Assembly: GCF_014705715.1 (NCBI RefSeq) | Contig: NZ_JACXLC010000001.1 | Coordinates: 1,532,457-1,596,456, forward strand | Direction of reading: 5' to 3' | Length of the DNA stretch: 64,000 nt | Source: Erythrobacter rubeus | GTDB taxonomy: Bacteria > Pseudomonadota > Alphaproteobacteria > Sphingomonadales > Sphingomonadaceae | In this document: one piece after another, positions 5,515 through 30,011 of the stretch | Layout: the number at the start of each line of letters is the position of its first letter | Position numbering within the stretch: the stretch's first letter is position 1 | Translations under genes and position numbers: made by a program | Notes under the pieces: generated by a model | Told to the model about the DNA's origin: nothing | Database searches by the model: none | The model's input: only the letters and a program-made list of their open reading frames with translations

Positions 5515-5615
5515 CGAACATTTCCCTTTATTGCTTTGCGGAAGATGCGCGCTTGTTGCCTGCCCCGCGCCGCGCAGATAGGTTGAAGGCCCGATGATTT
5601 GCCGATGAGAACCCG

Positions 5616-7127: not shown

Positions 7128-7162
7128 GCCAGGCCTCGGGCATGAATGGCTCTGCGTGAGAG

Positions 7163-7216: not shown

Positions 7217-7217
7217 G
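7192..7217. repeat. 26-bp direct repeat, copy B
   Basis: Identical to 4639-4664 over 26 bases and in the same orientation. It encodes the first eight residues of NspC plus the adjoining base, at a place where no intact nspC follows. Confidence 0.9.
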
Positions 7218-7233
7218 GTGGCTGGTTCAACCT

Positions 7234-7569
7234 TCAATTCGCGGCTGGGAATGCCTCATCTTTAGCTCCAAACGCATCGTAGGATACTTCGTAAAGCGCT
7301 GGCGACACGTCATCGAGCAAAGGCTTGATCTTGGCGATGTGCTCTTCGAACAGATCGCTATCGATCCACGCATCGTATTTTTCACGGCTCTCGAACAGCG
7401 CAACATTTACCGCAGTCCCGTTCTCGCGATTGACATGAAGCCGGTTCCAGATCGCGCCATCCACCTTCCCATCGAGCCTGCGGTATTCGGCGATCTGCGC
7501 GTCGACGAAGTTCTGGAGATCACCCTCTTTCGGGGTGAAGATATTGATGAGCGTTACGATGTCGGACAC
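7234..7569 (-). CDS. Antibiotic biosynthesis monooxygenase (ABM) domain protein
   Basis: 111 residues, the size of a single ABM dimeric alpha/beta-barrel domain. It begins with a beta strand (IVTLINIFTPKEGD), followed by a helix (LQNFVDAQIAEYRRL) and ALFESREKYDAWIDS, the typical order. Members include heme-degrading and quinone monooxygenases and many of unknown substrate. It lies 67 bp downstream of the polyamine dehydrogenase and is probably cotranscribed. The specific function is not evident. Confidence 0.75.
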   Translation of the reverse strand: MSDIVTLINIFTPKEGDLQNFVDAQIAEYRRLDGKVDGAIWNRLHVNRENGTAVNVALFESREKYDAWIDSDLFEEHIAKIKPLLDDVSPALYEVSYDAFGAKDEAFPAAN

Positions 7570-7636
7570 GGTTCAATTCCTGGTTTCAAGTGGTCCCCGC
7601 CACTTCACCAGCGAAGCATCGTCCGAAAGGTTTCAA

Positions 7637-8848: not shown

Positions 8849-9119
8849 GTCTTTGACCTTTCAAACTCGATTCTTGCGCGCGCATTAGGGCAATGCAGGA
8901 CCCACGACAATTGATCCGATGTTTCCTACGCGGCGCGAATTCGGCATAGCGGAATCATGGCAAATCCATTTCCAACAGCTGCGCACGTGTCAGGGTGCGA
9001 AAATAGCGGAATTCCGGGAGATTTTCTTGTCCCTGGACCGTGTAACACGCGGTCCATGTCTGGTGGTTGGCTGGGTGGCGCGGGTCGCCCCGGCCCGCAA
9101 CAAAGGACGACCCAGATCG

Positions 9120-10079: not shown

Positions 10080-10148
10080 TCGGTTGCGTTTGACAATCGA
10101 TCGTGGTTTGCGCAGGAAACGCTTCGAGGAAATGAGGGGATCACTTCA

Positions 10149-10601
10149 ATGCTAGCGCAAATGCTCGCGCCCGCAGCGGTGCTGGTGCTGTGGACACTGA
10201 TCATGCTGTTCTGGATCATACCATCGCGCTTCGGCGCGATTGCCAGGATTGAGGACAAATCCGTTCTCCCTCGAAAGGAAGGAGTCCGCGGCGGCGATCT
10301 CGAAGGGGTGATCCCGGACCGGGCGAATTGGCCCGCGCACAATCACACCCACCTGCATGAGCAGCCCACGCTGTTCTATGCTGTCACAGTAGTGCTTGCG
10401 CTCATGGGATCAGGCACTTTCGACATTCTGATGGCGTGGATCTACGTTGGTCTCAGGATCCTGCACTCACTCTGGCAAGTGCTCGTGAACAAGGTGCCCG
10501 TGCGCTTTGTTCTGTTCCTCCTGAGCTCAATCGTGCTGGTGGTCTTGGCAGTCCGCGCGGTGATCGCCACGCTGTTCGCCGACCCGAGCGTCGTCTCTTG
10601 A
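10149..10601 (+). CDS. MAPEG-family membrane protein 1
   Basis: 150 residues with four hydrophobic segments. HNHTHLHEQPTLFYAVTVVLA is the characteristic MAPEG region (basic/His cluster, E-x-P, then a membrane helix), followed by GLRILHSLWQVLVN. The family includes glutathione-dependent membrane transferases; bacterial members are mostly uncharacterised. It is 19 bp upstream of a second MAPEG gene, so the pair is probably cotranscribed and arose by duplication. Confidence 0.82.
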   Translation: MLAQMLAPAAVLVLWTLIMLFWIIPSRFGAIARIEDKSVLPRKEGVRGGDLEGVIPDRANWPAHNHTHLHEQPTLFYAVTVVLALMGSGTFDILMAWIYVGLRILHSLWQVLVNKVPVRFVLFLLSSIVLVVLAVRAVIATLFADPSVVS

Positions 10602-10620
10602 ACACTTACGGGAACTGAAA

Positions 10621-11079
10621 ATGATCGGAATGGATATCCTTCAACCCGCAGTCGCGCTGATGATCTGGACGATGATCATGTGGGCGTGGATGTATGCGAG
10701 CCGCATTCCCGCGATGAACAAGGCGAACATCCAGCCCGACGATGCTCAGGTCGTTGGCCTGCTGGATCAGAAGCTGCCAAACAAAGTCCAGTGGAAAGCG
10801 CACAATTACAATCACCTCCATGAACAACCTACCGTGTTCTATGCAGTCGCAATCGTGCTCGCGCTGCTGGGCGCGGGCGACGGGATGAGCGCCTTCCTCG
10901 CATGGCTATACGTTCTGCTGCGCGTGATCCACAGCGTCGTTCAGGTCACCGCCAACAAGGTGATGGTGCGCTTCGTCCTGTTCGCCTTGTCTAGTATGAT
11001 ACTGATCGCGCTCATTGTCAGCGCGGCCATGATCGTGTTTGGCGCGGGGGCTGATCAGAGCCCCTTCCTCTCCGCCTAG
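10621..11079 (+). CDS. MAPEG-family membrane protein 2
   Basis: 152 residues, clearly paralogous to the preceding gene: KVQWKAHNYNHLHEQP, FYAVAIVLALLG and LLRVIHSVVQVTANKVMVRF align throughout. Four membrane segments are predicted by eye. Its function is unknown beyond the family's link to glutathione-dependent membrane chemistry. Both copies keep the HLHEQP core. It is convergent with trxB. Confidence 0.83.
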   Translation: MIGMDILQPAVALMIWTMIMWAWMYASRIPAMNKANIQPDDAQVVGLLDQKLPNKVQWKAHNYNHLHEQPTVFYAVAIVLALLGAGDGMSAFLAWLYVLLRVIHSVVQVTANKVMVRFVLFALSSMILIALIVSAAMIVFGAGADQSPFLSA

Positions 11080-11095
11080 GAAAGCGCTCTGGGCG

Positions 11096-12073
11096 TTATT
11101 CAGCCGCTTCGGTTTCGGGCTCGGCTGAAGCGGCTTCCATGGTTGCGAGAAAGCGTTCTCCATCGAGCGCGGCCATGCAGCCCATTCCCGCAGCCGTGAC
11201 CGCCTGCCGGTAGACGTGATCCGTGACGTCTCCGGCAGCAAACACACCGGGCAGCGCCGTTTTGGGAGTGCCGGGCTCCACATCGAGATAGCCGCTGTCA
11301 TCCATCGCCAGCTTGCCCTTGAACAGCTCGGTCGCGGGAGCGTGGCCGATTGCGACGAAAGCACCGTCCACTTCCAGTGTCGAAGTCTCGCCGGTCACGG
11401 TGTCTTCGAGCACGAGGTGATGCAGCGCGCCGTCCTCGCCCGCCTCGAAACTTGTCACGGTCTTGTTCCACAAAGCCGAAATCTTCGGATGTTTGAGCAA
11501 GCGGTCTTGCAGGATCTTCTCCGCCCGCAGCTCATCTCGGCGGTGGATCAAGGTCACATCGTCCGAATGGTTGGTGAGGTACAGCGCCTCTTCCACGGCG
11601 GTATTGCCGCCACCGATCACGGCGACTTTCTTGCCGCGATAGAAGAAACCGTCGCAGGTTGCGCAGGCTGACACGCCCTTCCCGCCCAATTCCTGCTCAC
11701 CCGGCACACCAAGCCACTTTGCCTGCGCGCCGGTGCAGATCACCAGCGTATCGCCGATATACTCATCGCCGCTGTCGCCGATCGCCTTGTAAGGCGGTCC
11801 ATTTTCGAGATCGACCGAGACGATCGTGTCCCACATCATGCGAGTTCCCACATGCTCGGCCTGGGCTTTCATCTCTTCCATGAGCCACGGCCCCTGCACC
11901 ACGTCGCGAAAGCCGGGGTAATTCTCGACGTCGGTCGTGATCGTCAGCTGACCGCCGGGCTGAAGTCCCTGGACCACGATCGGCTCAAGCATGGCGCGCG
12001 CGGCATAGATCGCAGCGGAATATCCTGCAGGGCCGGAGCCGATGATGAGCATCTTGGTGCGATGGGTGGCCAT
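11096..12073 (-). CDS. trxB: Thioredoxin-disulfide reductase
   Basis: 325 residues, normal for low-molecular-weight TrxB. FAD site IIGSGPAGYSAAIYAARA, redox pair CATC in GVSACATCDGFFYRG, NADPH site AVIGGGNTAVEEALYL, and the C-terminal FAD motif GVFAAGDVTDHVYRQA are all intact. It reduces thioredoxin with NADPH in the cytosol. There is a short C-terminal Glu/Ala-rich tail. It is monocistronic. Confidence 0.96.
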   Translation of the reverse strand: MATHRTKMLIIGSGPAGYSAAIYAARAMLEPIVVQGLQPGGQLTITTDVENYPGFRDVVQGPWLMEEMKAQAEHVGTRMMWDTIVSVDLENGPPYKAIGDSGDEYIGDTLVICTGAQAKWLGVPGEQELGGKGVSACATCDGFFYRGKKVAVIGGGNTAVEEALYLTNHSDDVTLIHRRDELRAEKILQDRLLKHPKISALWNKTVTSFEAGEDGALHHLVLEDTVTGETSTLEVDGAFVAIGHAPATELFKGKLAMDDSGYLDVEPGTPKTALPGVFAAGDVTDHVYRQAVTAAGMGCMAALDGERFLATMEAASAEPETEAAE

Positions 12074-12152
12074 ATTTCGAATTCCTGTTGTTCTGAAGCA
12101 CCGACTTAAGCGTTCGGCAGCGCCGCTTCAATTCGCGGTGGAGAGGATTGTC

Positions 12153-12944
12153 TTATGCATCCACAAGCTGATCTTTGATCCGCTCACGTTTCGCAGCATC
12201 GACCCCGAGAACCTGTTCCAGATATGCATCGGTCGAACCAAACCGGTCTGTCATGGATTTGCGCGCGGCTTCAAGAAATTCCGCATCAACGCCCATGAGA
12301 ACGCGCATAGTCGCCTCATCTTTTGCACCGTATTTGCCGCCCATCAACGCCATCCCATGCGCAATACGCTCTTCATTGCGCGGTGAATGATTGGTCAGCA
12401 GGTAATCGTGCATCGCGTCATCGGCATGCACGCCGAGGATGTGATGCAGGAGGTCGACCGCGATACCGGTCCGATCCTTCCCAGCGGCGCAATGGACGAG
12501 ACTCGCCCCCGTCCCCGATGCCAGGGCGGTGAAATAGTCGCGCAGGACCGAGTTCAGGCCGGTTCGGTCAGGTAGAGCGCCGTACAGATCGACCATCGCC
12601 TTGTGAGCGGTCGATGCATCGACGCTGCCCTCTGCCGCTTCAAGATGCGGTGCGAGGCCAGCCGTCTCGCCTTCGAAGAAGAGCACCTCGGCATCGAAAC
12701 CCTTGGGCCGCCGGCAGGTGTGGCGTTCGCGCTCGCTGTCTCCCCTGAGATCGACCACGTGTTTCAGGTCCAGCCCGGAAACAGTTTCGAGATCGCTCTC
12801 GGTCGCCTTGGCATGGTGACCCGATCGAAACAGCAGCCCGGTCTTGACGCGCCCCCCGCCAGCGACTGCGTATCCGCCGTAGTCACGCAGGTTGTGAATT
12901 GCCTCGGTTGAGAGGAACGGGCCGGTTTTCGTGTCTCGAATCAT
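12153..12944 (-). CDS. Tyrosine-protein phosphatase (DSP-like)
   Basis: 263 residues from the ATG giving MIRDTKTGPFLS; the upstream extension to 13016 has no family features. NLRDYGGYAVAGGGRV and LLFRSGHH are the N-terminal family signature, DLR follows, and the P-loop HCAAGKDRTG contains the catalytic Cys and Arg. It is related to the Mycobacterium PtpB/YnbD-like family that acts on phosphotyrosine or phosphoinositides. It has no signal peptide and is probably cytosolic. Its target is unknown. Confidence 0.87.
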   Translation of the reverse strand: MIRDTKTGPFLSTEAIHNLRDYGGYAVAGGGRVKTGLLFRSGHHAKATESDLETVSGLDLKHVVDLRGDSERERHTCRRPKGFDAEVLFFEGETAGLAPHLEAAEGSVDASTAHKAMVDLYGALPDRTGLNSVLRDYFTALASGTGASLVHCAAGKDRTGIAVDLLHHILGVHADDAMHDYLLTNHSPRNEERIAHGMALMGGKYGAKDEATMRVLMGVDAEFLEAARKSMTDRFGSTDAYLEQVLGVDAAKRERIKDQLVDA

Positions 12945-13124
12945 TGCTCGAAAGACTTGGCAGTGCACGGGGCCCCGTACAACCGCCCGAATGCGCGGAT
13001 GCCGAATAATGGCCACGCCCCGCTACGTATCCATGCGTAGCCCATTGCAAAGGCGAAAGAGGTAACCTTCCGGATAACCACATCGCCATCGCGCCGACAT
13101 TCCATATAATCCAAAGGCACATCA

Positions 13125-13583
13125 ATGGCTTACGTACTCATCGCTGACGACGACGAACTGATCGCCGAGATGGCGTGCGATTTGCTGATCGATGAAGGAC
13201 ACGCGTGCGGCTGGGTGACGAGCGGCGAGGAAGCTTGGGATCTGATGCAGAAGAGACGGCCCGACATCCTGCTGCTGGATCAGGACATGCCCGGCATCTC
13301 CGGCGTCAGCTTGCTTCGTAAACTGCGCGGCTCAGCCAAATTCTACGATCTACCGGTCATCATGTTTACCGCGATGAGCGGCGAAGCGGACGAGGACCGG
13401 GCCATCTATGCCGGGGCTCAGGAATATCTGCGAAAGCCTTTCACACCGTCGGGGCTCATTAGTCGGATCGATAGGGTCTTGGCCAAGCGAGGTGACTTCG
13501 GGCATCTCGATCTGAAGACAAGACTGGCACGCGAAGCTGGCTTTCTCGATGAGGGCAGCCCGTTGGAGCGGCGCTTGGTCTAG
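13125..13583 (+). CDS. Single-domain response regulator receiver
   Basis: 152 residues made of one CheY-like domain with a short tail and no output domain. The acidic pocket DDD (8-10), phospho-acceptor Asp52 in LLLDQDMPG, Thr in IMFTAMSG and Lys in RKPF are all present. It probably acts as a phosphotransfer or protein-binding switch. No histidine kinase lies beside it, so its partner must be encoded elsewhere. Confidence 0.9.
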   Translation: MAYVLIADDDELIAEMACDLLIDEGHACGWVTSGEEAWDLMQKRRPDILLLDQDMPGISGVSLLRKLRGSAKFYDLPVIMFTAMSGEADEDRAIYAGAQEYLRKPFTPSGLISRIDRVLAKRGDFGHLDLKTRLAREAGFLDEGSPLERRLV

Positions 13584-13592
13584 AGGACGCAG

Positions 13593-14996
13593 TCAACCAG
13601 TGGCAAGATCGCTGCAAAACGTCTTCGTCCACGCTTGGACATTGTCATCGCGCACCGTTTCGATCATCGCCTCATAGCGGCTCTTGCGCTCCCCTAGAGG
13701 CATATCGAGCGCGGTTTCGATCGCGCGGGCAAGCGCATCCGGGCTATGCGGATTGACGAGCAACGCACCATTGCCGCCGCATCCGAGCTGGTGCGCAGCG
13801 CCAGCGAAATCCGAGAGTATCAGTACACCCGGATCGTTGGGGTCCTGCGCAGCAACGTACTCCTTGGCGACCAGGTTCATGCCGTCGCGTAGAGGCGTAA
13901 CCAATCCGATCTTCGCTCCTCGGAAAAAACCGTAGAGTTCCGCGTGGCTGTATCCCTGGTTTACATACCGAATAGGGACCAGGTCGACCTCGCTGCGCGC
14001 CCCGTTGATCTGCCCCGTTTTCTGTTCGAGTTCGGCGCGGATTTTCTGGTAGCTCTCGACATCCTCACGGCTCGGCGGGGCGATCTGTATGAATACGAGG
14101 TCGCGCACGCGCTCGGGATGCTGGTCGAAGAAACGGCCGATACCATCGATCCGTTCCGGCAGGCCTTTTGAGTAATCGAGCCGGTCCACCCCGATCATGC
14201 CGGTGCGATGACGAGTGGAGGAAAGCAGGCGCTGCGTCGCCTGCCGTGCCTCGCCGCTATCACCCTGCTCCTGGAAGTGATCCCAATCGATCCCGATGGG
14301 ATAAGCGCGCGCCGTTGTGGTGCGCCCCTCATGCGTGATCCGCCCGCTTTCCTTTTCGACCTCGGCACCCAGCTCGGTCTCGCAATAATGCACGAAACTC
14401 GATAGCCATTCCTCGGTCTGGAAACCGATGAGATTGTAGCTCAGCATGGTGCGAACCAAACGCTCATGGAAAGGCAGCGAAGTCAGCAGCCGTGTTGGTG
14501 GCCACGGCGTGTGCAGAAAAAACCCAATCCGGTTTTTCGCGCCAAGCTCCCGCAGACGGTCACCAATCGGGATCAGATGATAATCATGAACCCATACGAG
14601 GTCATCTTCCTCGATCAGCGGCATGACGCTTTCGGCGAAGCGTTCGTTCACCCGCTCGTAGCCGCGACCGGTCTCGTTTTCGAACTCGGCAAGATCGATG
14701 CGATAGTGAAACAGCGGCCACAGCGTCGAATTGGCATAGCCGTTATAATATTCATCCACGTCGCGGGTGCTGAGGTCGATTGTGGCGGTAGTTACGCCTC
14801 CACCGCGCTGGACGTTGATATTCCCAGTGCGGTCTTCACTCTCCTGACCGGACCATCCAAACCACAGGCCGCCGCGATCCCTGAGCGCCGCATTCAGCGC
14901 GCCTGCAAGTCCGCCCTGCGCACCTGCCGCCCCGCGCGCTTTGGGAACAGCGACGCGGTTCGAGATGACGACAAGTCTTGATGACGGGCGGCTCAT
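13593..14996 (-). CDS. otsA: Trehalose-6-phosphate synthase
   Basis: 467 residues from the ATG giving MSRPSSRLVVISNRV; an overlapping GTG at 15017 is an alternative start. GT20 features: RLVVISNRVAVP, WVHDYHLIPIGDRLRELG, GFFLHTPWPP, GVDRLDYSKGLPERI, and TPLRDGMNLVAKEYVAAQ. It transfers glucose from UDP-glucose to glucose-6-phosphate. It is the last gene of the otsB, GH15, otsA unit, with 7 bp to the stop of the GH15 gene. Confidence 0.93.
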   Translation of the reverse strand: MSRPSSRLVVISNRVAVPKARGAAGAQGGLAGALNAALRDRGGLWFGWSGQESEDRTGNINVQRGGGVTTATIDLSTRDVDEYYNGYANSTLWPLFHYRIDLAEFENETGRGYERVNERFAESVMPLIEEDDLVWVHDYHLIPIGDRLRELGAKNRIGFFLHTPWPPTRLLTSLPFHERLVRTMLSYNLIGFQTEEWLSSFVHYCETELGAEVEKESGRITHEGRTTTARAYPIGIDWDHFQEQGDSGEARQATQRLLSSTRHRTGMIGVDRLDYSKGLPERIDGIGRFFDQHPERVRDLVFIQIAPPSREDVESYQKIRAELEQKTGQINGARSEVDLVPIRYVNQGYSHAELYGFFRGAKIGLVTPLRDGMNLVAKEYVAAQDPNDPGVLILSDFAGAAHQLGCGGNGALLVNPHSPDALARAIETALDMPLGERKSRYEAMIETVRDDNVQAWTKTFCSDLATG

Positions 14997-21012: not shown

Positions 21013-21282
21013 TCAGACCGGGTCGAGCCGGATCGTCTGCGGATGGAGAGTATTGTCCTCGATCGTCAAGATGCCTGACGCGACAGCTTTGCTGATCATA
21101 TGAACGCGGTTTCGCGCTCGCATTTTCAGTCTCGCATTCTCAATATGACGTTCGACGGTTCTAGGCGCGATTTCGACATGTTTTGCAATTTCTTTAGTCG
21201 TCAAACCTCGAGCTGCCCATCTCAGTATCTCGTTCTCCCGCCTGGTTAACGGTATCGAATTCTCGGTATCGCTGATAATCAC
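21013..21282 (-). CDS. Stand-alone LuxR-type helix-turn-helix regulator
   Basis: 89 residues that are almost only the GerE/LuxR DNA-binding domain: PLTRRENEILRWAARGLTTK, EIAKHVEIAPRTVERHIENA and RLKMRARNRV. There is no receiver or ligand-binding domain. Transcribed divergently from the amyloid-like gene cluster across about 470 bp, it is the best candidate for its regulator. Such short LuxR-type proteins may respond through expression level or a partner protein. Confidence 0.85.
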   Translation of the reverse strand: MIISDTENSIPLTRRENEILRWAARGLTTKEIAKHVEIAPRTVERHIENARLKMRARNRVHMISKAVASGILTIEDNTLHPQTIRLDPV

Positions 21283-21753
21283 AAGCTTTATCCCTGCATC
21301 GTTGTTTTACTAACTATGCGAACCCAAAACTGTGAATTTCAAATATAAGATAGGTTAGCCTGTTTAGCTAACTACACTAATTTTTGTTTTATTATTTATT
21401 TTTCACTAATCCAGAATAGTATATTTATTGCATTATCGTCAACTGACGCGCTGCAGCTGGATCGCTTCTCAGTTCGGATCTGTGAAGATCGATAGATAAG
21501 CGTCTGACTGTCAAAGCGCTTTTTCCGCGAAGAACTAGAGCAGATGACGCCGTGTTTCGGCCGCCCCGAAGAACTCTTGGTTAAATTTACCTACAGGTTC
21601 TTACCAAGCGCAAATGCCTAAGGGAAAGCGACTCGGGACAATCATGCTGTAAATCAGCCGGATAGCCCGCGGCACGCGGTATCGGCACAATCAATCTCGA
21701 ACACGGCAACCCACTGGCGAACACGGTGGGCGGTCCGTTGCGGGAGAGAAAAC
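21283..21753. promoter_or_regulatory. AT-rich divergent intergenic region of the amyloid-like cluster
   Basis: No convincing gene is present. About 21330-21440 is strikingly AT-rich compared with its surroundings. An inverted repeat lies at 21354-21359 (gttagc) and 21367-21372 (gctaac), with further taactaa-like half sites on both sides. A gggagag sequence precedes the ATG at 21754. This is the likely promoter and regulator-binding region for both directions. No clear sigma-54 or sigma-70 element was identified. Confidence 0.5.
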
Positions 21754-22314
21754 ATGCGGGCACCTCAAACCAAACGTATATTCGCGAACATACGGTTTCG
21801 GCCTGTAACCCATGCCCCGATAGCGATCGCGGCGATATTGGTTGCGGCTGCTCCGGTGACCAGCGCGTCGGCACAGTCCGCCCAGATGGAAGCCGAAACA
21901 AGCCCGGGCAGCATGGTCGTGTTGCGAGAGGTCCCGACCCGGCCCGCTCAGCACGATGCGGCGGGCGAGGCGCTAACCGTGACGCTCGCACCCAATGACG
22001 CCTTCGCCGATGCGCTCGATCTTGGCCTTGCCGAACTCGACGATGCGCAGGCGGCAACGATCACTTCAAGTGTAATGAACGGCCTCAGCTTTCTGAATCA
22101 GGTCGATGCCGGCAGTGCGGCGACGGACTCGTTGATCGCGGACAGTCTCCAGCAAAACGGGCTGTCCTTCCTGAACGGCTCGGGACCGACGTCCGCCGGA
22201 TCGATCGTTTCCGGCTCGGTCGATGCGAGCTTAGCAGCAGCAAACTCGGCGATCGGAAGCGCCCTAGGCTCGGTATCAGGCGCACTCGGCGGTCTAAACG
22301 GAACCGGGCAATGA
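21754..22314 (+). CDS. Exported small protein of the Fap-like cluster (NGLSFLN repeats)
   Basis: 186 residues. The N terminus is basic and then hydrophobic (IAIAAILVAAAPVTSASAQ), a signal peptide with an AxA-type cleavage site. The mature part has two copies of NGLSFLN (in SSVMNGLSFLNQ and LQQNGLSFLNGSG) and ends in a Gly/Ala/Ser-rich tail (GSALGSVSGALGGLNG). No family is recognised. It opens the cluster and overlaps the next gene by 4 bp, so it may be a chaperone, nucleator or minor fibre component, as FapA or FapB are in Pseudomonas. That role is inference. Confidence 0.7.
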   Translation: MRAPQTKRIFANIRFRPVTHAPIAIAAILVAAAPVTSASAQSAQMEAETSPGSMVVLREVPTRPAQHDAAGEALTVTLAPNDAFADALDLGLAELDDAQAATITSSVMNGLSFLNQVDAGSAATDSLIADSLQQNGLSFLNGSGPTSAGSIVSGSVDASLAAANSAIGSALGSVSGALGGLNGTGQ

Positions 22315-22937
22315 CCAAAGTGCGCAGCCCCCTCTCAATTCTTGGTCTTGCTCTGGCACTTAGCTTCAGTGCGACCGCCGACGCGCAGGACGCCCAGGCG
22401 CCCTCCCCCGAAAAGCCCGGTGACTATATCGAGATCGGTAACGAGATCGGCGAATTCGATGGCGTCCGTCAGCTCAATATCGCCGCAGGAAACGGGAACC
22501 AGCAGGCAAATGTCGCCTCTGTCGCTTCCGGCGATTTCGCGATCAACACGGCCGTCGTCGCACAAGCCGCGGACCACACCCAGCCCGAGGAAAGTCGCAC
22601 TTATTCTGCACGAATTGTCGGTGAAGCCTTCGCAGACAGCCACGGCCTGACGGCGATCAATATCGCCGCAGGGTCCGACAACCAGCAAGCCAACCTCACA
22701 TTGATAACAACCGGATTGGAAGGGCAGATCGCGAGCACCGCATTGCTTTCGCAGACCCGCGCTTCCTCAGACCCGAAGGGGGCGAATAACTCTTCCGCAG
22801 CATCCGAATACACAGCGCAGATCGATCCGACTGCGTTCGGAAACAGCAGTGGGATCGTTCAAGTCAGCCTCATCGGTGGCACGGGGAACACCTCGGCCAA
22901 TGTCGCTGTGCTGTCCATGGAGGTCGGCACGAATTGA
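22311..22937 (+). CDS. Fap-like amyloid subunit 1, three imperfect repeats
   Basis: 208 residues with a signal peptide (SILGLALALSFSATADAQ). Three repeats are visible: LNIAAGNGNQQANVASVASG near residue 60, INIAAGSDNQQANLTLITTG near 117, and VSLIGGTGNTSANVAVLS near 185. The linkers are rich in polar and acidic residues. The G/A-A-G-x-x-N-x-Q-x-N core is like the repeats of FapB/FapC functional amyloids, where Asn/Gln ladders stack in the fibre. It is likely secreted and surface-polymerised. No close homologue could be checked. It overlaps the upstream gene by 4 bp. Confidence 0.75.
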   Translation: MTKVRSPLSILGLALALSFSATADAQDAQAPSPEKPGDYIEIGNEIGEFDGVRQLNIAAGNGNQQANVASVASGDFAINTAVVAQAADHTQPEESRTYSARIVGEAFADSHGLTAINIAAGSDNQQANLTLITTGLEGQIASTALLSQTRASSDPKGANNSSAASEYTAQIDPTAFGNSSGIVQVSLIGGTGNTSANVAVLSMEVGTN

Positions 22938-22958
22938 GCCCAGAACAGGAGAATTGAA

Positions 22959-24062
22959 ATGCGAAAACATGTGCTCCTCGCAGGCGTAGCGGCAGCAGCC
23001 GTATCGTTTGCACCAGCCACCACGATCGCCCAGGATGGTACCCTGGCCGACATCGTCGATGAACTCGGCGATTCACTCGAAGAGCGGCCCGATGAAGGCG
23101 TCAGCCTTGGTCTCGAAGGCACTGCCGAAGTGCACTATGAGAACGAAATCGAAACGGAAATCGAAACCGATGTCGACTTCACCAAGGATGTCACGCTTGT
23201 CGGTACGGTCAATCTGAATGGTGACATCAATGTCGATGCCGCCGCAGTTGCGATCGTGGACAACAAGCAAGCGCTTATCGGAAACACGCTCTATTTCAGT
23301 GAAGAAAACGAGCTCAATGGCGAAAATGGCTTCGTCGATCCGGTCTTCGGACCAGGATTTAGCGAAAACGGTGATCTCGGTGCGCCATTCGACTTCCTCG
23401 ATGGTGACCTTCAACCGCAAATCCGTGTTGGATTCTTCGCGCCCGTGGTCAACACGGTCGATGGTCTGACACTCGACGTTGAAGGCAATGTCGGGATCAA
23501 CCTTTCCGCCGGGTATTACAATATCCAGGAAAACATCGCGGCATTGGCAGTTTCGAACTTCGAAGGGACTGACGATGATGCCGGTGGCATGGCGGAAGCT
23601 TCGCTCACGACGCTTCAGCTGTCGACGCTCAACTTTATCGGCGAAGATCCTGTGAACGATCAGGCTGAAGACGATGAGGAGGCCGGTGGCTCCGCCAATG
23701 ACTGGCGTATCCGGAACACCGTGTTCGCAACCGATAGCTCGGTTACCGTGAACGGCAATGCAGGGATCAACGCTGCTGCCGGTGCGATGAACACGCAGAA
23801 GAATGCGCTTGTCCTGGCAGTCGCGACCGATTCGGCCATGGCCGAAGCGACAGCCGGTGTGATCCAGGCCAGCGTCGGAAACCTCATCGACGTACAGGAT
23901 GAGATCAACATCGTGAGCCCCGGTTCGTTTGAAGGTGCAGGCAATCTCGGCGTGAATATCGCCGCGGGCAGCATGAACCATCAGATGAACTCGCTGATCG
24001 CTGCAGTCGGTCTGGCTGGAGCCGGGAATGGTGGCGGTACCCCGCCGGACGACCCCAGCTGA
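22959..24062 (+). CDS. Fap-like amyloid subunit 2 (probable major fibre protein)
   Basis: 367 residues with a signal peptide (HVLLAGVAAAAVSFAPATTIAQ). Three well-preserved repeats: VGINLSAGYYNIQENIAAL near residue 172, AGINAAAGAMNTQKNALVLA near 269, and LGVNIAAGSMNHQMNSLIAA near 330, separated by long acidic linkers. An earlier Asn-rich stretch (NLNGDINVDAAAVAIVDN) may be a weak fourth repeat. Repeat number, repeat type and variable linkers match the layout of FapC. It is directly followed by a strong terminator, as expected for an abundantly made subunit. Confidence 0.75.
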   Translation: MRKHVLLAGVAAAAVSFAPATTIAQDGTLADIVDELGDSLEERPDEGVSLGLEGTAEVHYENEIETEIETDVDFTKDVTLVGTVNLNGDINVDAAAVAIVDNKQALIGNTLYFSEENELNGENGFVDPVFGPGFSENGDLGAPFDFLDGDLQPQIRVGFFAPVVNTVDGLTLDVEGNVGINLSAGYYNIQENIAALAVSNFEGTDDDAGGMAEASLTTLQLSTLNFIGEDPVNDQAEDDEEAGGSANDWRIRNTVFATDSSVTVNGNAGINAAAGAMNTQKNALVLAVATDSAMAEATAGVIQASVGNLIDVQDEINIVSPGSFEGAGNLGVNIAAGSMNHQMNSLIAAVGLAGAGNGGGTPPDDPS

Positions 24063-24075
24063 GGCTGACCACTGT

Positions 24076-24112
24076 TTGGGGAGCCGGTTCGCTGGCTCCC
24101 CAACCTTTTTTT
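24076..24112 (+). terminator. Rho-independent terminator after the amyloid subunit genes
   Basis: Perfect 10-bp stem, ttggggagcc (24076-24085) with ggctccccaa (24094-24103), 8-nt loop, then cc and seven T. It is the clearest terminator in the window and lies between the second amyloid gene and the C39 peptidase gene. Read-through or a separate promoter must supply the downstream genes. Confidence 0.85.
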
Positions 24113-24128
24113 GGAAAGCAACGGGATC

Positions 24129-24845
24129 ATGCGAACTGTCTGCCTGCCCTTGATCAGCATCGGGATGCTTTGCAGCCTTGCAGGGTGCGCGAGCGCGCCC
24201 GGAGGCATCCAGCCATTTGCCGTCGGGCAGGAGGGACTCCGCGCCCAGCCGCTCTACAAGCCGGTATCCAGCTGGCGGACCCGCAAATTCACCAACCTCG
24301 TACGTCAGCAGACCGATTTCAGCTGCGGTGCTGCCGCGCTGGCGACGATATTCAACTACGCATACGGCAAGAATACGAGTGAGCAGCAAGTCCTCGTGAA
24401 CATGCTGAAAATCGCCGATCCGGATGTGATCCGGGAGAAGGGATTTTCACTGCTCGACATGAAGAATTACGTTCTCGCGGTCGGCATGACCGGGCAGGGT
24501 TACGAAGTCGAATACGACGCGCTCAAGAACCTGAAGGTTCCGGCGATCGCTCTGCTGGATATCAAAAACTACAAACACTTCGTGGTCGTAAAGAAGGTGC
24601 GCGATGATTTCGTCCAGATCGGCGATCCCGCACTTGGCAACCGGACCATGTCACGGCGCGATTTTCTGAAATCGTGGAACAACGTCGTCTTCGTCATCGT
24701 CGGCGATGGCTTCGATCCTGACACGGTCCTTCTCAACCCGCCCCCGCCCCTTTCCGCAGCGCGGCTTTATGGCCTGCGCTCTCCCGTCAGAAACGCGGAG
24801 ATTTACGACCAGGGTCTCGGGCCAGCCTTCAACTTCGTCTTCTAG
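24129..24845 (+). CDS. C39-peptidase-like lipoprotein (FapD-like)
   Basis: 238 residues from the ATG giving MRTVCLPL; a TTG six codons upstream lies inside the terminator T-run. The signal sequence ends with LAGC, a lipobox, so it should be lipid-anchored. The peptidase core has QQTDFSCGAAALATIFNYAYG with the catalytic Cys and oxyanion Gln, YKHFVVVKKV with the His, and QIGDPALGNRTMSRRDF with the Asp. This is the C39 papain-like fold used by FapD in Pseudomonas for fibre maturation or export. The triad is intact, so activity is expected. Confidence 0.82.
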   Translation: MRTVCLPLISIGMLCSLAGCASAPGGIQPFAVGQEGLRAQPLYKPVSSWRTRKFTNLVRQQTDFSCGAAALATIFNYAYGKNTSEQQVLVNMLKIADPDVIREKGFSLLDMKNYVLAVGMTGQGYEVEYDALKNLKVPAIALLDIKNYKHFVVVKKVRDDFVQIGDPALGNRTMSRRDFLKSWNNVVFVIVGDGFDPDTVLLNPPPPLSAARLYGLRSPVRNAEIYDQGLGPAFNFVF

Positions 24846-24856
24846 GACAAACGGCC

Positions 24857-25732
24857 ATGGCACATTCACCATTTGAAAAAGAGAGCACGAGAACCCGCCC
24901 CATCGCGAATTGGCACCGGGCATTCCGAAGCTGCCTGCTGACGGTTGGATCGCTTTCGCTAATTTCCGCAGCTCCGCCCGAAACCGGCCTCGAGGGCCTA
25001 GGGCGCGAGATTTCCGACGATGAAATGTCGGATATGCGCGGTAAATTCATCAGGTCCAACTCCATTCATTTCTTCGGCGTCGAACTGTTGCAGAGCTGGC
25101 AATCGGCTGACGGCGTGACGCTGATGGCGACCCTGCAATTCAACGTCGACTTCGCGAACGGCGCGGGCAACTTGGATGGCGCGGTCCCGACGGTTCAGAT
25201 CTCGTGGAATCGCGTCTGCGCAACCTGCGCGGACTCCACCATGGACGTGTCCGGCATACAGTCCGATTTGTCCAACAGCGCACAATTGGCCCAGTCCGAA
25301 CCGGCGCTCTCGATCGGCAAATTCGGCAGCATCGACGGCCTCGTGCAGACGCAAGAACTCGCTGGATCGGATAACAATGTCCTCAATAATATGCGCGTGT
25401 CCGTCGTCCCCGCGGCGTCGCTTCAGTCGCTTCCCGCTGATGAGGCTTCCTCGATTTCATCGAGCGTGTCGCATCTGACCGACCAAGGCGAATCCATCGA
25501 TTTCAACGTGGCCCGCAATGAGCTCGGCATCGCGATGACCCGCGGGAGCGAATCCGTTCGCCAAGGCATCAGCGGCGAACTCAACCAGGCGGCTCAGCAC
25601 GTGATCCTCCAAAGCAGCCTCAACGCAATCCGCAACGAGATGGCGATCACCGTCGGCGTGAATGACCTCAATCAAGCAAGGCAGCACAGCGTGCAAACCG
25701 CCCTATCAGCGATGAAGGGGAGAGGAATGTGA
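24857..25732 (+). CDS. Exported CxxC protein of the Fap-like cluster (FapE-like candidate)
   Basis: 291 residues. A hydrophobic stretch near residues 25-42 (CLLTVGSLSLISAAPPE) is a likely signal peptide, preceded by a long polar N-terminal region. NRVCATCADS near residue 116 is a CxxC pair. The rest is rich in Ser, Asn, Gln and Ala and resembles a beta-helical or coiled secreted protein. Fap subunits and FapE carry a CxxC motif, so a minor fibre component is possible; the full-length match cannot be tested here. It starts 11 bp after the C39 gene. Confidence 0.62.
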   Translation: MAHSPFEKESTRTRPIANWHRAFRSCLLTVGSLSLISAAPPETGLEGLGREISDDEMSDMRGKFIRSNSIHFFGVELLQSWQSADGVTLMATLQFNVDFANGAGNLDGAVPTVQISWNRVCATCADSTMDVSGIQSDLSNSAQLAQSEPALSIGKFGSIDGLVQTQELAGSDNNVLNNMRVSVVPAASLQSLPADEASSISSSVSHLTDQGESIDFNVARNELGIAMTRGSESVRQGISGELNQAAQHVILQSSLNAIRNEMAITVGVNDLNQARQHSVQTALSAMKGRGM

Positions 25733-26373
25733 ACAGGGAAAGCGCACGGCGACTGGCATCGCCTATCAAGGATGGCATCGGCGGGGCGACCTGCGCTTTG
25801 ATCGCCTTTGCAACCTTGAGCATTTTCAGCGCGCCTCATGCGAGGGCCGAGACGGTCGATCACCAATTCGCGGTCGAGGATGCCGGGCGGGCCAATTGCG
25901 CCGACTACCTCGCGGCGCGCGAGGGCGGAACGAGGCAATCGGCCCGCTACATCGGCTTTATCGAGGGGTATCTGACCGCCGCCAATCGGTACGAACCCAA
26001 CACTATTGACCTGACACCATGGCACACGCCTGAGGCGTTCGCGCTGATCCTCGACCAGCATTGCAAGCGCGCGAAGGAAGAAGGTCTGGCGATGGTCGCG
26101 CAGCGGCTCGTCGTGTCGATGATGCCGCACCGCCTCGCAAGCAAATCCGAACTGGTCGAGGTGCGCGAGGGCGACAAGAGCGCCGTCGTCTACGAGAGGA
26201 TAATCTGGCGGGCGCAGAACCAGCTCGCGCGCCGCGGGCTTTATCGCGGCGAACCCGATGGGAAGGATTCTCCGCAGTTCAGGCAAGCGCTCACCCAATT
26301 CCAGCGGCTCGCAAAGCTCGATGAAAGCGGCGTCCCCGACGTCGCGACTTTGTGGGTGCTGCTCAACCCATAG
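25729..26373 (+). CDS. Exported protein with C-terminal peptidoglycan-binding domain
   Basis: 214 residues from a GTG overlapping the previous stop by 4 bp. A hydrophobic segment (GATCALIAFATLSIFSAPHARA, residues about 15-36) acts as signal peptide. The middle has two Cys and a helical pattern (ANCADYLAAREGG; FIEGYLTAANRYEPN) that resembles Rap1a/Tai-like small periplasmic folds. The C-terminal 55 residues (ARRGLYRGEPDGKDSPQF, ALTQFQRLAKLDESGVPD) are a PG_binding_1 domain. It may dock the apparatus to the cell wall. No such gene is part of the Pseudomonas fap operon. Confidence 0.7.
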   Translation: MNRESARRLASPIKDGIGGATCALIAFATLSIFSAPHARAETVDHQFAVEDAGRANCADYLAAREGGTRQSARYIGFIEGYLTAANRYEPNTIDLTPWHTPEAFALILDQHCKRAKEEGLAMVAQRLVVSMMPHRLASKSELVEVREGDKSAVVYERIIWRAQNQLARRGLYRGEPDGKDSPQFRQALTQFQRLAKLDESGVPDVATLWVLLNP

Positions 26374-26442
26374 CAAGCAGGAGCGCACAACCTTCCGGGT
26401 CGCACAGAGAGAAAAACATCTGACCAGAGGGGAGAGTGAAAA

Positions 26443-27843
26443 ATGCCCGACATAGCGAGAAGAGCAAGCGTGCTGCTTGCCACGGCCACCGCGCTGCCTT
26501 TTGCAACGACCGCCGCGGCTCAGGATGCAGATCCTCTAGCGGAGTGGATCGAAAGCGACGATCTCAGCCAGGAGCTTGATGAAGCGGTTCAGCCGGACAT
26601 GGCTACAGAACTTGCAGAGCTGCGCGCGCGTGACAGCGCTTCGCGCCAGAGAATTGCCGATCTTGAGGACCGGCTAGACCGTTTGGAAAAGGTCGCTGGA
26701 CTGGCCGGTGCATACCCGCTCAATGCCGCGGAACAAGCGGCGATGCGCGGTCGGGGTTTCGGTACGAACGTGATGTCACCGACCTATCGCGGCGACCAAA
26801 TCGAGCTGCTTCGCGGGCCAAGCGGCTTCGTGAGCGCCATACAGGACCAGGAACCGGAAGAGACGGAATCCGCCACCCGGCGCGAGCCTGCGCCGTCACA
26901 GTCGGTCACGGATATAACGGAAGATGCGCAAGGCTATTTCGGGCGGCGCTTCAGCTTCGAGACCGGCATCAATTACGCGCATTTCGATGACGCGCGCATC
27001 AACCTGAGCGGGTTCCTGGCGCTCGATGCGATCTTTCTCGGCCTCATCAGCATCGATGAACAGAGCTCCGATATCATCACTACCGATTTCACCGGACGCT
27101 TTGCCCCGAGTGACCGGCTGCAATTCGACGTGAACGTTCCGGTGATCTACCGCTCCTCCGTTTTCCAGTCGGGCGGCGCCGGCGGTAACGCCTCTGGCCT
27201 CGCCGATGCGCGTGTCGAGGAATTCGGCATCGGCGATATCAATGGCGGCGTGAGCTATCGGCTGCTGCGCGAAACCGTAAGGCGGCCCGATGTGGTCATA
27301 AACGCCCGTGTAAAGGGTCCGACCGGCCGCGACCCGTTCGGGATCGGGCTGGTCGAAGTGCCCGGCACAGAGGGTAATCTCGAAGTTCCGGAATCGCTAT
27401 CCACGGGCAGCGGCGTTTGGGCAGCATCCGTCGGCGCGTCCGTGCTGAAGACGCTCGATCCGATGATCGTTTTCGGGAACCTCACCTACTTCCATAATTT
27501 CCAGCGCGGATTCGAAGATATCGACGAGATAGAAGGTTTGCAGCCGGGCGACGTCGATATTGGCAACGCCATTCAGTTCGGCGCAGGCTTCGCCTTCGCC
27601 CTGAACGAAAAATCGAGCATCTCAACCAGCTTCACTCTCCGCTATGGCGATGAAACGCGTTTGCGGTTTGACGAAGGAGAATTCAGCGATGTCATCGGTA
27701 GCGGGTCTACCGTCGGGCTGCTCAACCTAGGCGCCACCTTTGCCATTTCGGACCGGATTTCACTGCTCACCAGCGTCGGCGTAGGGATGACAACCGATGC
27801 ACCGGACGTGACAGTGAGCGCGCGCGTGCCGTTCCGGTTTTAG
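26443..27843 (+). CDS. Outer-membrane beta-barrel with N-terminal coiled coil (FapF-like)
   Basis: 466 residues. Signal peptide ends at TTAAAQ. Residues about 55-86 form a heptad-rich helix (ELAELRARDSASRQRIADLE, DRLDRLEKVAG), then a Pro/Glu-rich linker, then from about 165 an alternating hydrophobic beta-strand pattern ending in the terminal Phe of RVPFRF, typical for outer-membrane insertion. FapF is a trimeric barrel with an N-terminal coiled-coil gate that exports Fap subunits, and this architecture matches. It has a gggga ribosome site 10 bp before the ATG and closes the cluster. Confidence 0.75.
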   Translation: MPDIARRASVLLATATALPFATTAAAQDADPLAEWIESDDLSQELDEAVQPDMATELAELRARDSASRQRIADLEDRLDRLEKVAGLAGAYPLNAAEQAAMRGRGFGTNVMSPTYRGDQIELLRGPSGFVSAIQDQEPEETESATRREPAPSQSVTDITEDAQGYFGRRFSFETGINYAHFDDARINLSGFLALDAIFLGLISIDEQSSDIITTDFTGRFAPSDRLQFDVNVPVIYRSSVFQSGGAGGNASGLADARVEEFGIGDINGGVSYRLLRETVRRPDVVINARVKGPTGRDPFGIGLVEVPGTEGNLEVPESLSTGSGVWAASVGASVLKTLDPMIVFGNLTYFHNFQRGFEDIDEIEGLQPGDVDIGNAIQFGAGFAFALNEKSSISTSFTLRYGDETRLRFDEGEFSDVIGSGSTVGLLNLGATFAISDRISLLTSVGVGMTTDAPDVTVSARVPFRF

Positions 27844-27911: not shown

Positions 27912-27962
27912 TTGACTCATCGCCTTTAATTGCATAATTCATTAAATATGCAATTAAAGGCG
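27912..27962 (+). promoter_or_regulatory. bigR promoter with overlapping 16-bp-arm palindrome
   Basis: TTGACT (27912-27917) and TAATTC (27935-27940) are 17 bp apart and fit a sigma-70 promoter. A perfect inverted repeat, arms 27921-27936 and 27947-27962 with a 10-bp centre, covers the spacer, the -10 box and the expected start of transcription. The expected +1 is within a base or two of the ATG at 27948, so the mRNA may be leaderless. It is probably the operator for BigR itself. Confidence 0.72.
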
Positions 27963-28295
27963 ATGGAAGAAAAAGCCTCCAAGGTAAGCGAGCTCCTCAG
28001 ACTGCTTTCGCATCGGGACAGGCTTATGGTTCTATGCCATTTGGCGCAGGGAGAAATGTCTGCGGGCGAGCTGGGACAGGCACTAGGCCGCAAAGCTCCT
28101 GCCATGTCTCAGCAGCTCGCCATATTGCGGCGCGAAGGCATCATCGCGGCCCGGCGCGAAGGCCAATCGATTTTCTATCGGATCTGCCACGAAGATGCCG
28201 TGGCGATCATGTCTTTCCTCTATGCTCGGTTTTGCAGCGACGACGCGGAAAACCTCGCGGTGTCCGGCGCGGAAAGTGAGGTTGAACGGGCATGA
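27948..28295 (+). CDS. bigR: BigR-type ArsR-family persulfide/sulfide-responsive repressor
   Basis: 115 residues from the ATG inside the right operator arm; ATG 27963 is an alternative and a TTG at 27930 is unlikely. The winged helix has LSHRDRLMVLCHLAQGEMSA, GELGQALGRKAPAMSQQLAI and RREGQSIFYRI. Two cysteines, one in MVLCHL and one in ARFCSDD near the C terminus, sit where the redox pair of Xylella and Agrobacterium BigR sits, which forms a disulfide or polysulfide bridge to release DNA. It overlaps the next gene by 4 bp. Confidence 0.85.
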   Translation: MQLKAMEEKASKVSELLRLLSHRDRLMVLCHLAQGEMSAGELGQALGRKAPAMSQQLAILRREGIIAARREGQSIFYRICHEDAVAIMSFLYARFCSDDAENLAVSGAESEVERA

Positions 28296-29158
28296 GCAAT
28301 CCGGTCGTCACCTCTTTCTTTGACCAAGCAACCAAGAATGTCAGCCACATCGTGGCCGATCCGGACACACGCCAATGCGCGATCATCGATCCGCTTTTGG
28401 ATTACGATCAGTCCTCGGGACGAACGTCGACCGAATCTTCCAATGCTATCATCGAATATGTGAAGAGCCAGGGTCTTTCGGTGGCTTGGATTATCGACAC
28501 CCACATACACGCAGACCATCTCTCTGCCGCGCAGCGTATCAAGGCCGAGCTTGGTGGTCGATTGGGCATCGGGGGACACATTTCCGAAGTTCAGCGCGTT
28601 TTCAGCGAGGTTTTCAACACCGGATCGTGCTTCATTCCGGACGGCTCCCAATTCGATCATTTATTCCGCGATGGGGAAACATACCAAGTCGGCAATATCG
28701 AGGCACGTGCCATCCACACTCCGGGCCACACACCAGCCTGTATGACCCACGCGATTGGCGACGCAGCATTCGTTGGCGACACTCTGTTCATGCCCGATTA
28801 TGGAACTGCACGCTGCGATTTTCCCGGAGGCGATGCGCGGACCCTGTATCGCTCGATCAAGCGTATCTTCGCCCTGCCCGACCAGACGCGCATATTTCTC
28901 AATCACGATTATCTTCCAGCCGGACGCACCGAGTATCGCTGGGAAACCACCGTCGCTGAGCAACGCCGCGAAAACATCCATGTCCGGGAAGGGATCAGCG
29001 AAGATGATTTTGTCGCCATGCGGACAGAACGCGATGCTGCCCTCGCAATGCCGAACCTGATGATACCCTCCGTCCAGGTCAACATGCGCGCAGGCTCTTT
29101 TCCCCCTGCAGAAAGCAACGGGGTCGCCTATCTTAAGGTACCGGTAGACGCCTTGTGA
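28292..29158 (+). CDS. Metallo-beta-lactamase-fold persulfide dioxygenase-like enzyme (Blh/ETHE1 type)
   Basis: 288 residues. Metal motifs: HTHIHADHLSAA, HTPGHTPACM, FVGDTLFMPDYGTARCDFPG, and FLNHDYLP. The DTLF, GTARCDFPGG and HDY pattern is that of ETHE1/Blh persulfide dioxygenases, which oxidise glutathione persulfide to sulfite using a single iron. It is located between bigR and two YeeE-type genes, the usual bigR-blh arrangement for hydrogen sulfide detoxification. Cytosolic. It overlaps both neighbours by 4 bp. Confidence 0.87.
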   Translation: MSNPVVTSFFDQATKNVSHIVADPDTRQCAIIDPLLDYDQSSGRTSTESSNAIIEYVKSQGLSVAWIIDTHIHADHLSAAQRIKAELGGRLGIGGHISEVQRVFSEVFNTGSCFIPDGSQFDHLFRDGETYQVGNIEARAIHTPGHTPACMTHAIGDAAFVGDTLFMPDYGTARCDFPGGDARTLYRSIKRIFALPDQTRIFLNHDYLPAGRTEYRWETTVAEQRRENIHVREGISEDDFVAMRTERDAALAMPNLMIPSVQVNMRAGSFPPAESNGVAYLKVPVDAL

Positions 29159-29601
29159 CCATAACAGCCTTCCCTGGAGCGATGCCCTTCGAAGGCCTGA
29201 TTGGCGGGCTCCTGATCGGGTTAGCCGCTGCGCTGCTGCTGCTGGGTTCTGGACGCATAGCGGGGATTAGCGGCATCGCTGCGAGAGCATTATCGCTTAG
29301 TCAGTCCGGCATTTCGGCGTCGTCTGCATGGATGTTCATGGGCGGCCTGCTGCTTGGAGCCATCGCTGTTCATTTCCTGATTTCCCCGATCGAATCCAGC
29401 TTCCCTCCTTCAAACGCTTTGCTCATTTTCGGCGGCTTGCTTGTGGGGTTCGGCACCCGGCTGGGGAGTGGTTGCACCAGCGGTCATGGGGTTTGCGGGA
29501 TGTCCCGATTCTCCCGTCGATCCTTCGTCGCCACGCTGACTTTTATCGCGAGCGGAATAACTACGGTCGCACTTGCAAATGAGGCGGGATGGGCATGGTG
29601 A
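29155..29601 (+). CDS. YeeE/YedE-type sulfur-transport membrane protein, first half
   Basis: 148 residues with four membrane segments (GLLIGLAAALLLLGSGRIAG; WMFMGGLLLGAIAVHFL; LLIFGGLLVGFGTRL; and a C-terminal one). The conserved loop LGSGCTSGHGVCGMSRFS contains the Cys typical of YeeE/YedE thiosulfate or sulfide transporters. It forms a split pair with the next gene, which overlaps by 13 bp. It probably moves reduced sulfur compounds across the inner membrane in the BigR operon. Confidence 0.83.
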   Translation: MTITAFPGAMPFEGLIGGLLIGLAAALLLLGSGRIAGISGIAARALSLSQSGISASSAWMFMGGLLLGAIAVHFLISPIESSFPPSNALLIFGGLLVGFGTRLGSGCTSGHGVCGMSRFSRRSFVATLTFIASGITTVALANEAGWAW

Positions 29602-30011
29602 TGCGCCGTGCCCTCGTTTCGCTCGCGTCAGGCGGCCTGTTCGGATCCGGCCTGGCGGTCTCCGGCATGATGGACCCGAAACGCGTCAGAGGGTTTCTCG
29701 ATATCTTTGGCGATTGGGATCCAACACTCGCTTTCGTCATGGGAGGGGCAACAGCTGTCATGGCCTTGGGCTGGCTCATCCAGGGCCGCATGCCAGCACC
29801 CGCCTTTGCCGACGAGTTTCAGTTGCCTGGCACGCGTTTGATCGACCTCAGGCTGGTGACAGGCTCGGCCATGTTTGGCATCGGTTGGGGATTGGCCGGG
29901 CTTTGCCCTGGCCCCGGGCTCGCAGCGCTGGTTATCGAGCCCATGTCGGCCGGAATCTTCGTCGCGAGCATGGTCGCAGGAATGGCAGTTCATCGCGCCG
30001 CAAAGCTCTGA
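29589..30011 (+). CDS. YeeE/YedE-type sulfur-transport membrane protein, second half (DUF6691-like)
   Basis: 140 residues with four membrane segments. GGLFGSGLAVSGMMDPKRV and FGIGWGLAGLCPGPGLAALV are the second-half signature, with a conserved Cys in LCPGP. It pairs with the preceding protein to make one YeeE-like unit. An overlapping start (ATG inside the previous gene) suggests translational coupling. It is the last gene of the bigR operon. Confidence 0.83.
   Translation: MGMVMRRALVSLASGGLFGSGLAVSGMMDPKRVRGFLDIFGDWDPTLAFVMGGATAVMALGWLIQGRMPAPAFADEFQLPGTRLIDLRLVTGSAMFGIGWGLAGLCPGPGLAALVIEPMSAGIFVASMVAGMAVHRAAKL

Follow-up and report, generated by a model that had tools for sequence, protein, structure and literature searches.

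A Fap-type functional-amyloid operon of the Erythrobacter lineage with one added gene, X, between fapE and fapF

In Pseudomonas, the exporter FapF of the functional-amyloid system Fap is described as a trimer whose plugged barrels stand on a coiled coil in the periplasm, and secretion of FapC needs the catalytic cysteine of FapD (excerpts of PMC5557850); the parts of a disordered chaperone, a nucleator and an anchor are assigned to FapA, FapB and FapE, respectively (excerpts of PMC12822426). The reported range of the system has grown: in 2013 it was given as confined to Beta-, Gamma- and Deltaproteobacteria (PMC3792158), 25 more genera followed in a review of 2018 (PMC6173800), and two GTDB-wide screens of 2025 counted 1172 and 1602 fap clusters (PMC12392863, PMC12822426) and report Fap across Pseudomonadota, as far as the excerpts of these four sources go. 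Here we describe a block of seven genes in a 64,000-nucleotide stretch of Erythrobacter rubeus DNA (contig NZ_JACXLC010000001.1, positions 1,532,457 to 1,596,456; hereafter the window, whose own numbering is used). Judged by sequence, the block at 21754-27843 is almost certainly a Fap functional-amyloid secretion and assembly operon, and it carries one additional gene, X.

The block consists of seven uninterrupted open reading frames (ORFs), co-directional on the plus strand as a preliminary description of this DNA had stated, which overlap or lie a short gap apart (widest gap 69 bases). With matches from NCBIfam, the order is A-B-C-D-E-[X]-F, that is, the canonical fapABCDEF with a single insertion (E-values and protein lengths in amino acids, aa, are given with each gene).

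21754..22314, + strand: fapA-like gene, 186 aa, candidate periplasmic chaperone (NF058617 FapA, 3.3e-4; position)
22311..22937, + strand: fapB-like gene, 208 aa, putative nucleator or minor amyloid subunit (NF058557 FapB, 3.8e-21; two clear repeats)
22959..24062, + strand: fapC-like gene, 367 aa, putative major amyloid subunit with three imperfect repeats (NF058558 FapC, 1.6e-16)
24111..24845, + strand: fapD, 244 aa from TTG, periplasmic C39 peptidase lipoprotein (NF058616 FapD, 4.3e-69)
24857..25732, + strand: fapE-like gene, 291 aa, putative fibre-associated or anchor subunit (NF058559 FapE, 2.9e-14)
25729..26373, + strand: gene X, 214 aa, extra component with a signal peptide (by eye), a weakly matched HdeA/HdeB-like two-cysteine helical domain and PG_binding_1 (4.6e-10); supported by synteny and co-occurrence
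26443..27843, + strand: fapF, 466 aa, outer-membrane amyloid exporter, coiled coil by eye (NF058560 FapF, 1e-111)

This order excludes the rearranged operon that had been proposed, and the "extra parts" come down to one added gene. The block had also been started at 21013, a position that belongs to a divergent minus-strand LuxR/GerE-type ORF (21013-21282) outside it. According to a figure legend in the accessible part of PMC6173800, a Fap operon has at least four fap homologues lying less than 5 kb from their neighbours; here five strong matches (FapB to FapF) and one weak match (FapA) lie within 6.1 kb. The G+C content of the operon (59.5%) is close to that of the window (58.6%) and gives no signal of foreign base composition, and the closest named FapF is that of Erythrobacter longus DSM 6997 (76% identity).

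Family profiles connected two of the products to solved Fap proteins. A ten-row alphaproteobacterial FapF profile, searched against the PDB, gave FapF crystal structures as its top four matches, with 5o65 at 1.5e-119 aligned over profile positions 149-474 of 474, from the plug region through the last residue. The FapF of the window is accordingly read, at the level of sequence, as a plugged outer-membrane barrel. The barrel with an N-terminal coiled coil of the preliminary description is thus FapF by profile and by match to solved FapF, and not an unrelated porin; the NCBIfam profile covers residues 51-466, N-terminal region included, and the N-terminal heptads were judged by eye. A ten-row FapC family profile matched only the solved FapC entries 9nqd (6.5e-21) and 9u4u (about 7e-21) in the PDB. 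The three repeats of the FapC-like protein score 42.9, 34.6 and 29.6 bits (best of 2000 shuffled sequences, 7.9 bits), so that the earlier count of three holds for this protein; extracellular amyloid formation by the 22959 product is a role we transfer by homology. In FapD, the Cys-His-Asp triad reported earlier is intact (Cys72, His156 and Asp172, invariant in 38/38 aligned FapD proteins) and the lipobox reads LAGC; an in-frame ATG at residue 7 is a likelier start than the TTG. The CxxC noticed in the fapE product is real, and it was rejected as a defining trait because only 3 of 25 alphaproteobacterial FapE proteins carry it (those of the window, L032 and L063). All the profiles that the preliminary description had named, FapB/C, FapD and FapF, found their matches, and its divergent Fap-type system stands.

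Several results weigh against calling this a Fap operon. All six Fap matches fall under the curated NCBIfam cut-offs, among them FapA (21 bits against a cut-off of 110 for NF058617), and the FapA profile matches only three of nine other alphaproteobacterial fapA products, leaving six without a FapA match. The FapB-like protein, earlier credited with three repeats, has two clear ones, the third being degenerate (a repeat profile derived from FapC scores it at 0.1 bit), while three FapB repeats are reported for 93.9% of 1095 in the excerpts of PMC12392863. FapF has STG in place of its second PTG motif, and in the FapD tree support is 61 for the split from the FapD/F-like class described below and 84 for the 25-row alphaproteobacterial group. 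As to the cut-offs, only 7 of the 21 FapF hits above 320 bits among 398 genomes of the phylum pass the curated FapF value, all seven in one family (f194), which we infer to be Pseudomonas; the NCBIfam cut-offs are therefore narrow in scope and do not define the Fap system. Compared with Pseudomonas Fap, the window has the same six homologues in the same order, the C39 triad, a three-repeat FapC and a FapF family matching 5o65, but differs by X between fapE and fapF, a weak FapA, the degenerate FapB repeat, the STG motif and sub-cut-off profiles. The roles of the window's Fap proteins would be those of their Pseudomonas homologues.

Relatives were sought in overlapping samples of the same genus (100 genomes), class (385), order (246) and phylum (398), counting matches at E<=1e-3. 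FapF scores form two main groups: those of true Fap exceed 320 bits, and those of a FapD/F-like class span about 100-180 bits. Between 182 and 320 bits there are none, and scattered matches lie below 75 bits. FapF matches occur in 24 genomes of the genus sample (15 above 320 bits), 27 of the class (4 above), 46 of the order (12 above, all from the window's own family) and 42 of the phylum (21 above, 18 of those outside the class). The full A-B-C-D-E-X-F order is present in 22 of 24 other alphaproteobacterial fap loci; no fapA was found in L076, and neither fapA nor fapB in L166, a locus cut by a contig end. One locus from outside the class, L157 (2736-12266), holds two tandem fap sets, B-C-D-E and then A-B-C-D-E-F.

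The FapF and FapD trees were quick searches with long branches flagged. In the FapF tree, 24 of the 25 alphaproteobacterial rows, that of the window among them, fall in one clade (support of 100 by the Shimodaira-Hasegawa-like approximate likelihood-ratio test, SH-aLRT), outside which lies G222, from another family; all Fap-type FapF are split from the FapD/F-like class (19 rows), again at 100. The FapD tree holds a 24-row alphaproteobacterial set that includes the window (support 99). The 20 FapD/F-like loci that we read resemble the window in their FapF-like barrel, in a C39 FapD-like gene (19/20; L087 is without) and, for some (L078, L079), in FapB/C-type repeat proteins, whereas their FapF scores are about 100-180 bits against more than 320, they branch separately in the FapF tree, and X was found in a single one of these 20 slices, L088; in the G246 locus (L196) it lies at a distance of about 10 kb. 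L078 (5306-10993) and L079 (5998-11622), both from genomes of the same genus, are second, divergent fap-like operons with no X in the slice, ordered as three FapB/C-type repeat genes followed by FapD-like and FapF-like genes.

Gene X sets the alphaproteobacterial operons apart. The fap loci were chosen without reference to X, and it lies between fapE and fapF in all 24 other alphaproteobacterial loci, where the cluster stays together, and in none of 13 loci outside the class (taken from the 18 phylum hits above 320 bits there). In 12 of these 13, fapE and fapF stand no more than 134 bases apart, which leaves no room for X; in L153 the distance is 1122 bases, with no X match. Of the 100 genomes of the genus sample, which contains that of the window, 15 hold X at full length (E below 1e-80), and these are also the 15 that hold true FapF. 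Beyond them, G078 codes for a divergent X (118 bits) with no match to FapF, and four weaker hits are confined to the C-terminal domain. Across the class, 20 of 385 genomes gave an X match at E<=1e-10, and 16 of these 20 have no true FapF. We hold X to be very probably a dedicated part of the Fap system.

Two rival readings concern the operon as a whole. An ordinary fap operon of the kind counted in the published GTDB screens, with X a passenger that has no role in Fap, would agree with the occurrence of fap operons across many Pseudomonadota families (excerpts of PMC12822426), but X is present in 24/24 other alphaproteobacterial loci and absent from 13/13 others, it tracks true FapF 15 for 15 within the genus, and, with flanks that differ between loci, one would expect a passenger to have dropped out; we consider this improbable. 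More improbable still is that the operon exports a non-amyloid adhesin, as FapD/F-like or FilB/FilC "pilus" systems would: FilB and FilC profiles also match the window (1.3e-33 and 2.4e-18) and FapD/F-like loci with different neighbours are frequent in Alphaproteobacteria, yet the FapD (4.3e-69) and FapF (1e-111) profiles score far better, FapB, FapC and FapE are present, the FapC family matches the solved amyloid FapC, and the FapF tree makes the split at 100, although the FapD tree gives it 61. Membership of the FilB/FilC "pilus" group was discarded on the profile scores and the FapF tree.

As to what X does, its sole secure domain is PG_binding_1, found in 22/22 members. In its N-terminal domain Cys57 and Cys112 are invariant, likewise in 22/22, and two conserved cysteines are also present in E. 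coli HdeA and HdeB, which their record names periplasmic acid stress chaperones; presumably the two cysteines of HdeA/HdeB form a disulphide. Pfam HdeA (PF06411) is weak in 10 of 22 operon copies of X (best E 0.0033); of ten distant members, L190 and L199 score over the Pfam cut-off. A Pfam HdeA search of 96 genomes of the class for more members gave only two and was taken no further. With a low-confidence model of the N-domain, VIA-align placed HdeA/HdeB in the top four of seven rows at Z 7.5, 6.5, 6.2 and 5.4, a range where, by the tool's own warning, helical folds may match by chance.

Other results speak against this likeness. X of the window has no Pfam HdeA match at E<=1; the two-row AlphaFold2 model of the N-domain is helical with a mean predicted local distance difference test score (pLDDT) of 60.9 (the full-length model, at 54.5, was not used); Foldseek with the N-domain model ranks HdeA first at a non-significant E of 2.0; PDB profile searches with X returned no HdeA at E<=1 or at E<=10, by which X as HdeA by PDB sequence profile was ruled out; and hhalign against E. 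coli HdeA/HdeB gave a probability of 12% (E 0.0024). Because the PDB profile searches and hhalign give no support, we name the domain HdeA-like, on evidence that is weak and in part modelled, and do not claim HdeA itself. X would share with the HdeA/HdeB chaperones a helical model, two conserved cysteines and the top structural rows; it differs in being fused to PG_binding_1, in being encoded in an amyloid operon and in lacking a Pfam HdeA match in the window.

Two functions of X compete. It could be a wall-tethered holdase for amyloid subunits, a proposal that we put at slightly under an even chance. It could instead be a scaffold whose peptidoglycan-binding domain fastens FapF or FapE to the cell wall, with the N-domain as a protein-protein docking module; PG_binding_1 as sole secure domain, the weak HdeA likeness and a FapF coiled coil that spans the periplasm (excerpts of PMC5557850) agree with this, while the two invariant cysteines, the HdeA/HdeB structural rows on the low-confidence model and the presence of distant X genes in loci with HfaB/CsgG-type exporters do not. 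The scaffold is a possible function that we rate below the holdase.

X was also followed outside fap operons, in 14 loci. These come from G078 and from 12 of the 16 class genomes with X and no true FapF, which makes 13 genomes. In five (L186, L187, L196, L197 and L198) a giant Asn-rich protein (838 to 3063 aa) is encoded 21-588 bases away from X, the gene being cut by a contig end in L198, and four of the five also carry FapD/F-like or CsgG-type exporters. In L187 and L196 the giant protein has QQNNG-type repeats, with a FapD-like gene on its far side from X and, beyond that and on the opposite strand, a FapF-like barrel; these two loci are apparently a second FapD/F export system in Alphaproteobacteria. 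The giant QQNNG-repeat proteins themselves lie at 11299-13815 in L187 (838 aa) and 7004-16195 in L196 (3063 aa), both beside the distant X. An HfaB/CsgG-like gene lies beyond the giant protein in L186, and in L197 (G439 C12) the giant gene separates X from a CsgG match at a distance of about 7 kb. These two loci resemble HfaB-CsgG holdfast-anchor and curli-exporter loci in that a giant secreted Asn-rich protein separates X from the HfaB/CsgG-like gene; they differ from the window in an exporter of the CsgG family, with no FapD or FapF found in either slice. The L186 row (3315-14883), made up of X, an Asn-rich secreted protein of 1557 aa and a lipoprotein resembling HfaB/CsgG, comes from G078 and adjoins ExbB, ExbD, TolB-like, OmpA-family and OmpW genes. 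Such neighbours suggest that X serves several kinds of repeat-protein exporter. A wider proposal, tentative and in our judgement doubtful, is that X forms a family of peptidoglycan-tethered HdeA-type holdases for amyloid and Asn-rich repeat-protein export in Alphaproteobacteria, common to outer-membrane exporters that are unrelated to one another (FapF, FapD/F-like systems with giant QQNNG-repeat cargo, and HfaB/CsgG-type systems). In 9 of the 14 distant loci X has no giant Asn-rich neighbour, which counts against the explanation favoured below.

Taken together, a Fap amyloid operon of the Erythrobacter lineage with the added gene X, proposed as a wall-tethered holdase, is probably the best explanation of the locus. 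By analogy with Pseudomonas, FapB, FapC and FapE would cross the inner membrane by Sec and be kept unfolded in the periplasm with FapA; FapD proteolysis would be required before exit through the gated FapF trimer, and outside the cell FapB would nucleate and FapC polymerise into surface amyloid. The C-terminal domain of X would tether it to peptidoglycan close to the periplasmic FapF coiled coil, where the HdeA/HdeB-like domain may act as a holdase that keeps subunits soluble at the exit site and may supplement the poorly conserved FapA.

Three further features may concern expression of the operon.

21013..21282, - strand: stand-alone LuxR/GerE-type DNA-binding ORF, 89 aa, divergent from the operon, candidate local regulator (GerE 1.3e-18)
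21283..21753, + strand: upstream region, presumed promoter, 45.6% G+C against 58.6% for the window (base composition)
24076..24103, + strand: stem-loop between fapC and fapD, 12 pairs (one G-U) followed by CC and seven T, intrinsic-terminator-like

Homologues of the GerE-type ORF (60-74% identity), again upstream and divergent, were found in L032, L063 and L163 and, at E<=1e-12, in none of the rest of the 24 other alphaproteobacterial loci; the ORF may regulate the operon in these three and in the window. Two stand-alone GerE-type ORFs (52-54% identity to that of the window) also lie near the FapD/F-like locus of L081 (8511-10851). The upstream region held no sigma-54-type site at up to two mismatches and no sigma-70-like match on the plus strand.

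The stem-loop has a predicted energy of -23.3 kcal/mol, equalled in none of 40 dinucleotide shuffles. In a 100-base window, which cuts some stems that score stronger in a 150-base window, the best stem after fapC was unmatched by the 40 shuffles in 15 of 25 alphaproteobacterial loci and 6 of 13 others, and at least one shuffle was as strong in 10 of the 25. Strict terminators stand at the C-D junction in 3 of 25 alphaproteobacterial loci and 4 of 13 others, against 1 of 171 other junctions tested. The post-fapC stem is stronger than the best post-fapD stem in 37 of 38 loci (150-base window), the latter control being mostly coding sequence. L150 was anchored wrongly, on fapB, in the stem-strength tests, and L157 was mis-paired across its tandem sets in the terminator count. 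We lean towards a partial terminator that sets subunit excess; it would let fapABC be made in excess over fapDEXF, and the stem-loop is a simple candidate for how that excess is set. The word "terminator" in PMC7764130, a source that also names fapC and fapD, refers to Rho in the excerpt.

The genes flanking the operon in the window are unmatched in the 24 other alphaproteobacterial fap loci, save for the GerE-type ORF and a metallo-beta-lactamase match in L164 (27% identity), while two groups of the other loci share flanks among themselves; the operon has therefore sat in several places. No empty site was found: with 81 same-genus genomes searched per flanking gene, the upstream and downstream genes matched in 32 and 68 and were never adjacent. 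Downstream of fapF, 27930-30011 encodes an ArsR-family regulator, a metallo-beta-lactamase-fold protein, and Sulf_transp and DUF6691 genes (Pfam), which we guess to be a sulphur-related unit unrelated to Fap.

That Fap was described mainly outside Alphaproteobacteria, as the preliminary description held, fits the 2013 account (PMC3792158), but since the GTDB-wide screens report Fap across Pseudomonadota, the alphaproteobacterial branch has probably been counted there already, though we found no description of it. "Alphaproteo-" and "Erythrobacter" are absent from the main texts of PMC12392863 and PMC12822426, and "peptidoglycan" and "HdeA" from that of the second; in the open-licence literature, figures excluded, no paper was found, with the terms tried, that pairs FapC with Alphaproteobacteria, Fap amyloid with Erythrobacter, or HdeA with FapC. 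The operon is thus a member of a known system, and its novelty lies in the fixed extra gene X.

The present work gives a detailed account of the alphaproteobacterial Fap system as it occurs in the Erythrobacter lineage. How Fap subunits are prevented from clumping before export still calls for an explanation, FapA being optional and often missing. X, found in every operon read of one fap branch and beside other repeat-protein exporters, is a testable new accessory factor. If its proposed role is true, X would represent a shared periplasmic quality-control module for secreted amyloids without counterpart in Pseudomonas Fap.

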